The notes under the pieces: generated by a model
Seen by the model: the letters and a program-made list of their open reading frames with translations, nothing else
Database searches by the model: none
What the model was told of the DNA's origin: nothing
In this document: positions 2,161 through 7,044 of the stretch, in pieces
Numbering within the stretch: the stretch's first letter is position 1
Layout of the letters: each line of letters starts with the position of its first letter
NCBI GenBank assembly: GCA_017860765.1
Contig: JAGDMY010000241.1
Span: 1-7,044 of the forward strand
Reading direction: 5' to 3'
Origin: Chloroflexota bacterium
GTDB taxonomy: Bacteria > Chloroflexota > Dehalococcoidia > Dehalococcoidales > UBA3254
Length of the DNA: 7,044 nucleotides
Position numbers and translations under genes: made by a program

Positions 2161-3432
2161 TTGAACATCAGCACATTATTTTTAGGGCTGGGTATTCTGG
2201 GTGCCTTTATCATCGGGATCGTGCTGGGCGGCTTCTTGATCTGGATCTTAAGGGGCGCGGTGATGGGCAGAAGACGCCGCATCGCAGAGAGAAAAGCTGC
2301 CAGGATAGAGGCGGAAGGACGCAACGTAGCCAAGGGTATCATAGATGAGGCCAAAAAAGAGGCGGAAAAGGTCAAAACGTCGGCAGATGCAGAATATCGC
2401 CAGAGACGTTCTGAACTTCAACGCCAGGAGAACCGTTTAACTCAGAAAATAGATTCATTGGACCATAAGCTGGAAAATCTGGAAAATCGCGACCGGAACC
2501 TTAATAACCGGGAAAAAGAAATCGAAACTCTGCGAACTAATATCGTAGAAATCCGTGATAAAGAGCTGAAAAAACTGGAGGAAGTCTCCAATATGACCAG
2601 CGCCGACGCCAAGAAGATGCTGCTGGAAAACATGGAGGCGGAAATGAAGCAAGAAACGGCCCGCCGCATCCGTGATTGGGAAGTTACCCTCCAGCAGCAG
2701 GCCAACGAGAAGGCCCAGGAGATTCTGTCCCAGGCTATTCAGCGCTCAGCCTCCGAGATCGTCTCGGAGACCACGGTGTCCGTGGTACCAATTCCTAATG
2801 ATGAGATGAAAGGAAGATTGATAGGGCGGGAAGGACGGAATATCCGGGCCCTGGAGCAGGCTACCGGTGTAGACCTGATAATTGATGACACTCCGGAGGC
2901 GGTAACACTATCCAGCTTCGACCCTGTGAGGCGTGAAATTGCCCGCCTGTCCTTAACCCGCCTGATTCTCAACGGGCGTATTCATCCGGCCCGTATTGAA
3001 GAAGTTGTGAATAAAGCTAAAGAAGAAGTCGAAGCTACTATTTACAGCGCCGGAGAGCAATCTGCCATAGGGGTGGGCGTACAGGGGTTGCGTCCGGAAC
3101 TTATCAAGGTCTTGGGCCGGTTAAAATACCGCACCAGTTACGGTCAAAACGTTTTGAACCATAGCATTGAGACTGCTTTCCTATCAGGTATGATTGCCGG
3201 CGAACTGGGGGCCAACGTGACTCTGGCCCGCAAAGCCGGCTTGCTGCACGACATCGGCAAGGCCATAGATCGGGAGGTAGAAGGCAGCCATGCCGCTATC
3301 GGGGCTGAACTGGTTCAGCGCTGGGATAAGTCGCCGGAGATAGCCCAGGCTATCGGGGAGCACCATAATGAAGCCCCCGGCGCGAATCTCTGGAGAGCTA
3401 TATCAAGCGCCTGGAAACCCTCGAAAATATAG
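2161..3432 (+). CDS. rny: Ribonuclease Y, frameshifted and truncated in the HD domain
   Basis: RNase Y is the membrane-anchored endoribonuclease that initiates mRNA decay in many bacteria. Order of parts: membrane helix (about 5-30), basic stop-transfer stretch (37-40), long charged coiled coil (about 41-200), KH domain with GREG at 222-225, then an HD domain with His334, the HD pair 363-364 in LLHDIGKA, and His401-His402. After HHNE (401-404) family sequence stops, and a frame-shifted tail ends at residue 423, against about 515-520 in the family. The normal C-terminus continues in another frame (3378-3641). By family spacing about 67 nt are missing, including the AADAIS-type segment with the distal metal-binding Asp. 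The protein as written should lack nuclease activity. The cause may be a real mutation or an assembly/sequencing error; upstream sequence is pristine, so decay is recent at most. Confidence 0.93.
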
Positions 3433-3641
3433 CTAACAGCTTCAAAGGTGTCGAGAAGTCCTTTGCTATCCAGGCCGGACGCGAAATTCGTATTCTGGTC
3501 AAACCGGAGGAAATTAATGACCTGGATTCCATCCGTTTGGCCAGGGACATAGTCAATAAAATTGAGGAAGGCATGGAATACCCGGGGCAGATTAAAGTCA
3601 CGGTGATCCGGGAGACCCGCGCTGTAGATTTCGCAAAATAA
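3372..3641 (+). pseudogene. rny: C-terminal remnant of RNase Y, out of frame with its N-terminal part
   Basis: This frame opens after a TGA at 3369-3371 and reads [19 protein letters not shown] from 3378. It goes on through [40 protein letters not shown] and [16 protein letters not shown], to a TAA at 3639-3641. This is the usual RNase Y C-terminal domain, with no further damage. It has no start codon or ribosome binding site of its own. Joining it to the upstream part with a family-length gap would give about 515 residues, matching a complete RNase Y. A simple -1 slip at the C-run near 3374-3378 would join the frames but would still leave out the missing HD segment. Confidence 0.88.
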
Positions 3642-3648
3642 CCTGAGC

Positions 3649-3750
3649 TTCTCCCTTTGGCAAAGGGAGACGGGAGAGGGATTTTCCAATTGGTCTTGTA
3701 GTCGAAGAAGGTAAATCCCCCTTAATCCCCCTTTAGCGAAAGGGGGAAAT
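3649..3750. repeat. Two-hairpin dispersed-repeat element between rny and ymdB
   Basis: Two perfect stems are present: CTCCCTTT-GGC-AAAGGGAG (3651-3669) and CCCCCTTT-AGCG-AAAGGGGG (3727-3746). Between them are GGGAGAGGGATTTTC and AAATCCCCCTTAATCC. Sequences of this form (read from the other strand as PPFAKGGLRGI or NPSPV...QRE in spurious ORFs) are known as widespread intergenic repeats in many bacterial genomes. Family membership is recognised from memory, not searched. The element fills most of the 138-nt gap and could act as a transcript-end structure or RNA stabiliser. Confidence 0.65.
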
Positions 3751-3779
3751 GAACATATTGAAAGGCTAGAAACTAAAAC

Positions 3780-4505
3780 ATGCAAATCCTGGCGATCGGC
3801 GATGTAATAGGAAAACCGGGCAGAGAGACCGTCCATAGGGTACTGCCCGGTCTGCGTCAGCAATATAACCTGGACCTGGTTATTGCCAATGCGGAGAATG
3901 CTGCCGGAGGCCTGGGCCTCACACTGAGCACTGCCAAAGAGCTCCTGGATATCGGGGTCGATATTTTGACCTCGGGCAACCATGTCTGGGACCAGAAGGA
4001 AATCATCCCTTATTTGGACGGAAACCTGCCCATACTGCGGCCCTTGAATTATCCCCCCGGAGTGCCCGGGCGGGGTTGCATCGTGCGGGAGAATATCGCT
4101 GTCATTAACCTCATCGGCCGGACCTTCATCGGCAACTTTGACTGTCCTTTCCGGGCGATGGATACCCTGTTGGCCGGCTTCAGGAATAAATACTCCATTA
4201 TTATCGTGGACTTCCATGCCGAAGCAACCTCGGAGAAGGTAGCCATGGGGCATTATCTTGACGGGCGAGTCAGCGCAGTCGTCGGCACACACACCCACGT
4301 CGGTACTATTGATGCCAAAATATTTCCTCGAGGTACTGCCCACATCACGGATATCGGAATGGCGGGGCCTGCGGATTCGATTATTGGCGATGATGCACAG
4401 AGCGTGCTGCAGCGGTTCCTGACTGTCATGCCCCACCGGCTGGCCGTGGGCAGCGGGAAAAAGATGATTCCCACCGGCTGGCCGTGGGCAGCGGGAAAAA
4501 GATGA
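3780..4505 (+). CDS. ymdB: YmdB-type calcineurin-like metallophosphoesterase (TIGR00282), C-terminus frameshifted
   Basis: This family contains Bacillus subtilis YmdB, a two-metal phosphodiesterase acting on cyclic nucleotides and linked to biofilm and mRNA control; it is unrelated to E. coli YmdB. Metal-ligand motifs are all present: GDV (Asp8), AEN (Glu39-Asn40), GNHVWD (Asn67-His68), DFHAEATSEK (His146) and GTHTHVGT (His171, His173). Family sequence runs to residue 230 (GSGKKMI). A 38-bp tandem duplication then forces 11 foreign residues and a stop, giving 241 residues. Removing one copy restores FNSVLIAVDDKSGKALSIER and the native end at 4592-4594, 258 residues in all. The active-site part is intact but the last 28 residues, which should form final strands of the fold, are lost. 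The ribosome binding site is weak. The position directly after rny is the same as in Bacillus. Confidence 0.92.
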   Translation: MQILAIGDVIGKPGRETVHRVLPGLRQQYNLDLVIANAENAAGGLGLTLSTAKELLDIGVDILTSGNHVWDQKEIIPYLDGNLPILRPLNYPPGVPGRGCIVRENIAVINLIGRTFIGNFDCPFRAMDTLLAGFRNKYSIIIVDFHAEATSEKVAMGHYLDGRVSAVVGTHTHVGTIDAKIFPRGTAHITDIGMAGPADSIIGDDAQSVLQRFLTVMPHRLAVGSGKKMIPTGWPWAAGKR

Positions 4506-4507
4506 TT
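4432..4507 (+). repeat. Perfect 38-bp tandem duplication inside ymdB
   Basis: Copy 1 is 4432-4469 and copy 2 is 4470-4507, identical at all 38 positions and directly abutting. Each begins CCCACCGGCTGGCCG and ends AAAAAGATGATT. As 38 is not a multiple of three, the second copy shifts the frame and brings in a TGA at 4503-4505. There is no visible microhomology between the outer ends of the unit. Confidence 0.97.
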
Positions 4508-4594
4508 TTTAATTCCGTCCTGATCGCCGTCGACGACAAGTCCGGGAAAGCCTTAAGCATTGAACGCGTTGACCGGGAAGTAGACCTGCAGTGA
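4470..4594 (+). pseudogene. ymdB: Native C-terminal end of ymdB, now out of frame
   Basis: From the second repeat copy the family frame reads HRLAVGSGKKMI and then FNSVLIAVDDKSGKALSIER, ending VDREVDLQ at a TGA (4592-4594). That stop overlaps the GTG of the PHP gene by 4 nt. The sequence has no stop or further damage, which is expected if the duplication is new, artefactual, or bypassed by recoding. Confidence 0.85.
4493..4499 (+). other. Possible -1 slippery heptamer G GGA AAA in ymdB
   Basis: In the frame read from the ymdB ATG, codons are GGA (4494-4496) and AAA (4497-4499), preceded by G4493. This gives an X XXY YYZ heptamer two codons before the premature TGA. A -1 shift here continues AAG ATG ATT TTT in the native frame and would produce a 271-residue protein with 13 extra residues. 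Phase and sequence are seen directly; actual slippage is speculation, and no clear stimulatory structure is visible downstream. Confidence 0.3.
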
Positions 4595-5424
4595 GCCAGG
4601 TTGATTTGCATATCCACACTACGGCCTCCGACGGTAAATTTTCTCCGCTTGAAATAGTCTGCAAGGCCCGGGAAGCCGGTCTGACCTATATCTCCATTTG
4701 CGACCACGATTCCATAGAGGGAGTAAGACCTGCCCGGGAAGCAGCCTCACATTACCCTGGCCTCACAGTCATCAGCGGGGTTGAGATTAATACGGATATA
4801 GCCGCGGGCGAACTGCATATTCTGGGTTATTTATTCGACCTATCCAGCGATGAGTTAAAAACTACCCTTGAGGGGCTGCGCAACTCCCGGATAGAGCGGG
4901 CCAAAAAGATGATTCGCAAGCTGCGTAAACTGGGTATTGACATTGATTTCGAACGCGTTCAGGAGCTGGCCGGTACCGGTTCTATTGGCAGGCCTCACAT
5001 CGCCCAGGCGATGCTGGAAAAAGGCTACATAAACTCCTTCAAAGATGCCTTTCTAAGGTATATCAGCCGTGGTTGCCCGGCTTATGTCGAGAGGGATAAG
5101 ATAACACCGGCAGAAGCCACCCGCCTGATCCTGAGAGCTAATGGATTACCTGTGATGGCCCATCCCCTCACCTTCGAAAACCCGGAAAATCTGATCTGCG
5201 AATGTAAGGCTGCCGGCCTTGTAGGCCTGGAAGTTTACTACAATTCCTATACCCCGGAGCAAATCCGCGACTTGCTCAGGATAGCCAGTAAATATGGGCT
5301 GATTTCCACGGGTGGCAGTGATTTTCATGGTCTGGATAGCAACAATGAGCTTCCTCTGGGGGCCGTGGACGTTCCTCTGGAAGCTGCCGTAAATCTCATA
5401 GCCCTGGCCCACCATGAAGGTTAA
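4591..5424 (+). CDS. PHP-domain phosphoesterase, TrpH/YciV (RNase AM)-like
   Basis: PHP proteins are metal-dependent phosphoesterases. The closest type by layout is E. coli TrpH/YciV, which hydrolyses 3',5'-nucleoside bisphosphates and trims RNA 5' ends. The 277 residues are near the usual 280-295. Metal-binding motifs in order: DLHIHT (His7, His9), CDHDSI (Asp38-His39-Asp40), GVEI (Glu65), GELHILGY (His76), GRPHIA (His136), VMAHP (His191) and GGSDFHG (Asp244, His246). The insert of about residues 84-180 between motifs is also TrpH-like. The GTG start overlaps the native ymdB stop by 4 nt (GTGA), typical of translational coupling. The upstream ribosome binding site is poor, so coupling probably mattered. 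The exact substrate cannot be read from the sequence; histidinol-phosphatase-type PHP proteins are a less likely alternative. Confidence 0.9.
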   Translation: MSQVDLHIHTTASDGKFSPLEIVCKAREAGLTYISICDHDSIEGVRPAREAASHYPGLTVISGVEINTDIAAGELHILGYLFDLSSDELKTTLEGLRNSRIERAKKMIRKLRKLGIDIDFERVQELAGTGSIGRPHIAQAMLEKGYINSFKDAFLRYISRGCPAYVERDKITPAEATRLILRANGLPVMAHPLTFENPENLICECKAAGLVGLEVYYNSYTPEQIRDLLRIASKYGLISTGGSDFHGLDSNNELPLGAVDVPLEAAVNLIALAHHEG

Positions 5425-5477: not shown

Positions 5478-6170
5478 ATGCTGGTTGAATTCGGCCTGTT
5501 CCTGGCGGCCTCTTATCTGATAGGCTCAATACCCCTGGCCTATATCATCGCCAGATGGCGCTACGGGTTAGACATCCGCAAATACGGCAGTGGCCAGGTG
5601 GGAGCCAGCAACCTCTACCGCAGCGTGTCAAAAAAGGCAGGCATCCTGGTAGGGCTTTACGATGCCGGGAAAGGCGCCCTGCTGGTCTGGATCGCCCATT
5701 TGCTGGGAATGGAACTCTATATGGAAGTGGCCGTGGGCATTGCCGTCGTTGTGGGGCACAACTGGCCGATTTTCCTCCGTTTCAATGCGGGCCGGGGTCT
5801 GGCTACCACGGCCGGCGTGGCCTTTTACCTTTTCCCCTGGGGCATCTGGGCCTTTGTAGCCGGGGCCGTGTTCACCTTGCTGCTGGGAGCTTCGCCTTTG
5901 CCTGTCCTGGTAGGGCTGGCAGCCATCCCGCTGGCCAGCTGGCTCTTCCAACAGCCACTGGAGCTTACCCTCGGGCTATCGGCCCTCTTTTTGATTCTGG
6001 TTGTGCGGCGCGTCACTGCCCCGAAGACTGACCGCAGCAGCCTGGTCAGCACCCGAGGATTGCTGATAAATCGCTTCCTTTTCGATCGCGATATCAGGGA
6101 CGGCAAGGCCTGGATTACGTTCAAACCGCCGGCGGCTGACAAAACTAACACCCGGAGGGGAAATGAATAG
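5478..6170 (+). CDS. plsY: PlsY-type glycerol-3-phosphate acyltransferase, variant motif
   Basis: PlsY is the membrane enzyme that moves an acyl group from acyl phosphate to glycerol 3-phosphate, making lysophosphatidic acid for phospholipids. Five or more hydrophobic segments are visible across residues 5-185. Signature parts: SYLIGSIP (12-19), GSGQVGASN (37-45), DAGKG (62-66) and GHNWPIFLRFNAGRGLAT (93-110). The usual last motif has KGGKG, so NAGRG here is a variant, with Lys to Arg a mild change. The protein has 230 residues, longer than the common 190-215, with a basic C-terminal extension from about 185. A purine-rich AGAAGAGAG precedes the ATG. It follows the PHP gene by 53 nt and overlaps the next gene. 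It may be a PlsY paralogue rather than the principal enzyme; whether another copy exists cannot be seen here. Confidence 0.88.
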   Translation: MLVEFGLFLAASYLIGSIPLAYIIARWRYGLDIRKYGSGQVGASNLYRSVSKKAGILVGLYDAGKGALLVWIAHLLGMELYMEVAVGIAVVVGHNWPIFLRFNAGRGLATTAGVAFYLFPWGIWAFVAGAVFTLLLGASPLPVLVGLAAIPLASWLFQQPLELTLGLSALFLILVVRRVTAPKTDRSSLVSTRGLLINRFLFDRDIRDGKAWITFKPPAADKTNTRRGNE

Positions 6171-6648
6171 TATGCCCCGCTGCAAGCGCCATCCCGGTTC
6201 TGAGACCGGCCTCAGCTGCGGTAAATGTGGAGATCCCATCTGCCCGAAATGTCTGGTCCAGACTCCTGTGGGTGCTCGCTGCCCGGCCTGCGCCCGGGTT
6301 TCCAGGGTGCCGACCTATCAAATCTCCCGGGTATATTATCTGAGAGCCATAGGGGCTGGATTGGGACTATCTATCGCCTGCGGTCTGTTGTGGGGATTCA
6401 TCCAGACTTTCCTGTTTTCTTCCTTCTTTAATTTTCTGATCGCTGCAGCGGCGGGTTACGGCATCGGCGAAGGAATTAGCCTTTCCGTCAATCGCAAAAG
6501 CGGCCTCGGGCTTTGCATTATCGGCGGCGTGGCAGTAGCCTTGAGCTATCTGATCGGCATTTTTACTATGGGGCGAGGGCATTTCGCTCCTTTTGATATT
6601 CTCGCCATTGGAATAGGTATTTTTGTGGCGGTGACCCGTTTACGCTAA
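6163..6648 (+). CDS. B-box-type zinc-finger membrane protein of unknown function
   Basis: I do not recognise a named gene. The 161 residues start with a zinc-binding module: Cys7, His10, Cys19, Cys22, Cys27, Cys30, Cys40 and Cys43, in a C-x2-H...C-x2-C-x4-C-x2-C...C-x2-C pattern with PICPKCLVQTPVGARCPAC. This resembles the bacterial B-box zinc finger often fused to membrane domains such as rhomboids. About four hydrophobic helices follow (roughly 59-85, 87-105, 116-133, 144-158); none carries a rhomboid GxSG motif. The ATG at 6163 is 4 nt after GGAGG and overlaps the plsY end; ATG 6172 is an alternative, 13 nt away from it, and keeps the whole zinc module. The overlap suggests co-translation with plsY. 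The role is unknown. Confidence 0.85.
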   Translation: MNSMPRCKRHPGSETGLSCGKCGDPICPKCLVQTPVGARCPACARVSRVPTYQISRVYYLRAIGAGLGLSIACGLLWGFIQTFLFSSFFNFLIAAAAGYGIGEGISLSVNRKSGLGLCIIGGVAVALSYLIGIFTMGRGHFAPFDILAIGIGIFVAVTRLR

Positions 6649-6690: not shown

Positions 6691-6747
6691 ATGTCCGGGG
6701 ATTTAAATTTAAGACAAGGGAGAGACCGATGCGCAAAGTCGCGGTAG
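6691..6747 (+). CDS. Possible 18-residue leader peptide overlapping the thiolase start
   Basis: GGAGG (6678-6682) stands 8 nt before an ATG at 6691, a better ribosome binding site than most in the window. The frame reads MSGDLNLRQGRDRCAKSR and stops at 6745-6747, so it overlaps the first six codons of the thiolase in another frame. It could serve translational coupling or be a chance arrangement. The peptide has no recognisable features such as codon runs typical of attenuators. Confidence 0.3.
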   Translation: MSGDLNLRQGRDRCAKSR

Positions 6748-7044
6748 TCGGCGTCGGTCAGACCAAATTCAGCGGTGCTCAAAGGCTTGAGCTCTTTTCA
6801 GAAGCAGCCCTGGAAGCCCTCGCTGGCGCCGGCCTGAGAACAGGAGATATTCAGGCTTTGCATGTCGGGAACGTCCTCAGCGACTTCGAAGAAGGGCAGC
6901 AGCTAGCCCACCCCTTCATCGCTGAGAATCTGGGCTTGAAGAATATTCCCACCAACACTTTCGATGGAGCTTGTGCTTCTTCCTCCGTCGCCATCCGCGA
7001 CGCCTTCATCTGGATTGCCTCCGGAATGTATGACGTCATACTGG
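6729..7044 (+). CDS. Thiolase-family acetyl-CoA acetyltransferase, archaeal type (5' part only)
   Basis: Thiolases join or cleave acyl-CoA thioesters through an active-site cysteine. The first 105 residues are present, out of about 390 in the family, and the gene leaves the window at its right edge. MRKVAVVGVGQTKF is the typical N-terminus, and the nucleophile is Cys82 in FDGACASSSVAIRDA. The HVGNVLSDFEEGQQLAHPFI stretch and the lack of features of classical biosynthetic thiolases favour the archaeal/SCP2-like group, whose partner is often a DUF35 zinc-ribbon OB-fold protein just downstream, outside this window. GGGAG (6718-6722) stands 6 nt before the ATG. The substrate cannot be told: acetoacetyl-CoA for isoprenoid synthesis or fatty-acid degradation are both possible. 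Confidence 0.88.
   Translation, partial: MRKVAVVGVGQTKFSGAQRLELFSEAALEALAGAGLRTGDIQALHVGNVLSDFEEGQQLAHPFIAENLGLKNIPTNTFDGACASSSVAIRDAFIWIASGMYDVIL

Follow-up and report, generated by a model that had tools for sequence, protein, structure and literature searches.

Two out-of-frame indels in the adjacent rny and ymdB genes of a Dehalococcoidia-like bacterium, and their probable origin in assembly

Gene content of the window and structure of the broken rny gene

The window, that is, the whole stretch of 7,044 bases analyzed here, carries the following genes.

282-1337, + strand: recA
1421-2110, + strand: recX
2161-3641, + strand: rny, broken (1481 nt, start codon to natural stop)
3780-4594, + strand: ymdB, broken
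4591-5424, + strand: PHP-domain phosphoesterase
5478-6170, + strand: PlsY-type acyltransferase
6163-6648, + strand: protein of 161 residues whose B-box zinc-finger match scores just at the cut-off
6729-7044, + strand: thiolase, start only

The nearest genome found was that of an uncultured Dehalococcoidia bacterium (L001), whose best segment, 82% identical, lies in RNase Y, and the named protein relative P0042 comes from a Dehalococcoidales bacterium. The source organism is a Dehalococcoidia-like member of the Chloroflexota. About 280 nt lie upstream of recA (1-281), with no plus-strand open reading frame of at least 50 codons and no Rfam (gathering threshold) or tRNA/tmRNA match. The gap between rny and ymdB (3642-3779) spans 138 nt, whereas it measures 23 nt in L001 and 20 nt in L090, the closest relatives; it holds two near-palindromes of the form CCCTTT...AAAGGG, a pattern absent from the 132 related loci surveyed below.

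The broken rny gene was divided into the following parts.

2161..3377, + strand: N-terminal region, KH domain and most of the HD domain, in frame 1
3374..3378, + strand: deletion junction, exact base ambiguous within a C run, 67 nt gone
3379..3432, + strand: aberrant frame-1 tail, 17 codons to a premature stop (ORF 2161-3432)
3378..3641, + strand: last 87 codons with the natural stop, read in a different frame from the N-terminal part

The HH codons lie at 3361-3366, and the RRESLE motif starts at 3378, 11 nt further on and in another frame. In an intact and near-identical RNase Y on record (P0001), 26 residues, or 78 nt, separate the second His of HHNE (H402) from R429, and 67 nt are therefore missing from the window; the start-to-stop lengths of 1548 nt in P0001 and 1481 nt in the window agree with this. 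A sequence-only reading of the DNA had estimated a loss of about 67 nt from a normal spacing of about 26 residues, with a shift of frame after the break, and alignment with the rny of relatives bore this out, the loss being exactly 67 nt against P0001. The residues lost are T407-A428 in P0001 numbering (22 residues), and the 17 tail residues that follow the junction are unrelated. Before the break, the encoded protein differs from P0001 only at the start codon and by K287R (403 of 405 residues identical); after it, the match is complete (87 of 87). When compared with the more distant L001, the 87 post-break codons show 38 synonymous and 6 non-synonymous differences, indicating that they had been under selection.

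Profile searches reflected the same structure. The frame-1 part matched NCBIfam TIGR03319 over residues 16-410 (E=4.6e-150), and the truncated ORF scored 500.5 bits (cut-off 454.35) over profile positions 4-409 of 514 only, while positions 430-514 matched 3384-3638 in another frame (E=2.3e-42). Thus, no single frame of the window gives a full-profile match above the curated cut-off. Pfam RNase_Y_N (PF12072) and KH_1 (PF00013) were both found above cut-off, and the Pfam HD match covers profile positions 1-92 of 116. No solved structure related to P0001 was found by sequence at E up to 0.001.

The endonuclease activity on RNA by which RNase Y is defined here follows PMC10303841 on the B. subtilis RNase Y, and the H...HD...D metal motif of the HD domain follows a figure legend of PMC8177086. 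The frame-1 part still encodes H334, H363, D364 and H401-H402, but D419, the Asp of AADAIS, lies in the missing stretch. This Asp is invariant among the relatives listed (120 of 120), as are His363 and Asp364, and His334 is present in 119; its position and conservation suggest that it is the distal metal ligand of RNase Y. The one exception at residue 334, the first His of the motif, is a Gln in P0002 (91% identical). Since Asp419 falls inside the missing 67 nt, frameshifting would still yield a product with an incomplete metal site, and the sequence-only reading was correct both in placing a conserved Asp in the lost stretch and in regarding frameshift rescue as insufficient. It is therefore very improbable that frameshifting, RNA editing or a variant HD enzyme makes the short form work. 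The sole point in its favor is the conservation of the coding sequence flanking the break, and set against this are the 22 residues still missing from a shifted frame, the absence of the short form from all relatives listed, and a neighboring lesion in ymdB that it leaves unexplained.

A tandem duplication in ymdB

The adjacent ymdB gene carries an indel of its own, within 1.1 kb of the rny deletion and likewise out of frame.

3780..4505, + strand: ymdB, TIGR00282 family metallophosphoesterase, frame ended early (Pfam YmdB, E=4.5e-93)
4432..4507, + strand: perfect tandem duplication of 2 x 38 bp (4432-4469, 4470-4507), detected by TRF and a repeat finder
4508..4594, + strand: remaining C-terminal end, out of frame with the start; its translation matches the C-terminus of P0121

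The 38-bp duplication shifts the ymdB frame, so that the ORF ends at 4505. Its score against TIGR00282 is 251.9 bits, slightly below the cut-off of 254.15. P0121, the nearest ymdB relative found, is intact and 96% identical. Neither the aberrant tail motif nor two copies of a narrower motif occurred in any of the 120 ymdB relatives listed. A broader motif was present in exactly one copy in 91 of the 120, and the other 29 are covered by the tail-motif and narrower-motif tests together with their length range of 254-264. No further indel was seen in the other genes of the window (7,044 bases).

Intact and interrupted copies among relatives

The distribution of rny was surveyed in 156 genomes from the order of the nearest relative, with P0001 as query. 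Some match was obtained in 151 of them, weak HD-domain matches included. By hand count, rny was near full-length and uninterrupted in 126 genomes (a match beginning no later than residue 77 and reaching at least residue 503) and only partial in 16; the remaining 14 gave weak matches or none and thus had no recognizable rny, which may reflect incompleteness. All 16 partial copies were inspected, and 15 stop at a contig end and one, in G041, at a run of N. Accordingly, wherever rny is cut short among the 142 genomes with a match, the cut lies at a contig end or a run of N. The same short form, which the sequence-only reading had named as something that would speak against it if shared by close relatives with a functional alternative, was found in none of them.

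Three candidates for a second break were examined and rejected. In G041 (L119, C1:941000-945500), rny ends at residue 362 within a 1.03-Mb contig, but it does so at an N block, which lies right before the HD motif and is an assembly gap that imitates a truncation. In G086 the break near residue 68 falls at an 'NN' join and is followed by the contig end; here (L124, C74, near locus base 2375) the 'NN' is flanked on either side by the same 8 bases and the rny frame is broken, and this repeat is an unmerged overlap at the join. The TAG in a second rny fragment of G060 lies three codons from the contig end.

The second set consisted of 132 related loci with 1,032,633 bases, several of which are duplicates of one place. 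An rny match was present in 125 loci that measure 2,500 bases or more; in 115 of these the gene reaches its C-terminus in one frame, and the exceptions lie at the locus end or at an N block. Of the 92 loci in which ymdB was matched, 90 carry the gene in full and 2 have it at the locus end. Perfect tandem duplications with a period of 25-100 numbered zero in the 132 loci (1,032,633 bases), against one in the 7,044-base window. The rny junction was found in none of the 132 loci, nor in viral contigs. A protein search whose query was the 40-residue stretch surrounding the aberrant tail gave 35 matches among 36 candidates, and the tail itself was in none of the 242 proteins returned, in a collection clustered at 90% where the P0001 cluster (6 members) could conceal truncated copies.

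Second partial rny fragments were observed at contig ends in some relatives, e.g., G042, G060 and G126, and may reflect strain mixture. They are what could be cited for regarding the window as a second copy in decay, the genome having an intact rny at another place. We consider this extremely improbable, as the window's rny adjoins recA, recX and ymdB just as in the relatives inspected (L001; L119; rny-ymdB neighbors) and has not decayed by substitution.

Origin of the two indels and comparison with known systems

From the directly observed indels, their effects on the frames and the intact relatives (a near-identical rny and a 96% identical ymdB), we infer that the rny deletion and the ymdB duplication are most probably two local assembly or consensus errors that are not in the cell. 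The organism most likely carries an ordinary full-length RNase Y and YmdB. Several lines of evidence favor a mistake of this kind: the intact, near-identical P0001 is on record, there is no substitution decay on either side of the rny break, and two clean out-of-frame indels lie within 1.1 kb of otherwise intact housekeeping genes, the second being the duplication at 4432-4507, which is the clearest pointer to an assembly fault. A near-identical relative without the lesion is known for rny, and the closest one found for ymdB is 96% identical. Points against an assembly error are that no closer ymdB relative than this was found, that the window's other genes show no further indel, that truncated copies could be concealed in the P0001 cluster, and that 14 of 156 genomes have no recognizable rny, probably through incompleteness. 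The sequence-only reading had named an assembly error as the alternative to loss of RNase Y by the organism, and it is this alternative that the evidence favors; the proposed loss is not supported, given an intact P0001, two undecayed gene halves and a second clean frame-breaking indel, in ymdB, of which that reading made no mention.

The ymdB duplication would be explained if two contigs overlapping by 38 bases at their ends had been joined without merging the overlap. For an assembler with k=39, 38 equals k-1. The rny deletion may stem from two ends falsely joined at a short overlap rich in C. By codon constraint, microhomology at the rny junction would be at most about 3 nt, and there is none in the bases flanking the 38-bp unit; so little microhomology makes slippage between repeats less likely and is in keeping with faulty joining. 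Slippage was also considered by reading the matching places in the DNA of L001 by eye, where there was no long direct repeat.

The main alternative is a genuine and very recent rny deletion, with a separate ymdB duplication, in the strain or in part of the population, where RNase J and other nucleases would carry mRNA decay. Indeed, no RNase Y whose HD domain is complete can be read from the sequence as written, and the 14 of 156 genomes without a recognizable rny could point the same way, although they may merely be incomplete. RNase J (TIGR00649) exceeded the cut-off in 131 of the 156 genomes (145 when any match at E≤0.001 is counted). RNase E/G did so in only one, G086 (40 with any match), and the clade therefore probably depends on RNase Y; the combination of RNase E/G and a broken rny in G086 may be a coincidence or a mixed assembly. 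With RNase E/G rare and RNase J common in the order, the enzyme most obviously left to act would be RNase J if the loss were real. Such a loss need not be as drastic as the sequence-only reading implied: a review (PMC3997798) describes RNase Y as not essential in S. pyogenes, S. aureus and B. subtilis, the last growing considerably slower without it. Dispensability in some Firmicutes thus speaks for a real mutation. However, it would require that two neighboring conserved genes each lost their frame independently, without other decay, and a deletion and a duplication of this type in neighboring genes would be a coincidence under any biological reading. With the survey showing rny cut short solely at contig ends or N runs, and with the scant microhomology at both sites, we regard a real mutation as unlikely. 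More unlikely still is its specific form, in which a natural Dehalococcoidia-like strain has just lost RNase Y activity and an intact YmdB in a clade nearly always without RNase E/G, relying on RNase J for bulk mRNA decay.

A literature search for RNase Y in Chloroflexi found no paper. If the loss were true, the strain would be a natural experiment on surviving the loss of RNase Y in a bacterium without RNase E/G. As biology, however, the loss is probably not real, and as an artefact the locus is a warning that two clean indels in adjacent conserved genes of one contig can mimic the loss of a core nuclease.

Compared with known proteins, the window's rny has the same domain order as Ribonuclease Y (TIGR03319; PF12072, KH and HD), but differs in lacking 67 nt in the HD domain, in its broken frame and in the conserved distal Asp that is not encoded. 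The window's ymdB shares with the YmdB/TIGR00282 metallophosphoesterases its place after rny and a YmdB domain over residues 4-228, but is frame-shifted by the 38-bp duplication before the last ~30 residues. Among the matches listed in a search of the literature on assembly errors, no title named such an artefact. Published long-read errors resemble the window in being clean indels in otherwise intact conserved genes, although those errors come from long reads and the window may not. The join in G086 (L124) is of the class of error inferred for the window, as bases repeated at an unmerged overlap break the rny frame; its repeat comprises 8 bases, is marked by NN and lies in rny, whereas that of the window comprises 38 bases, contains no N and lies in ymdB.
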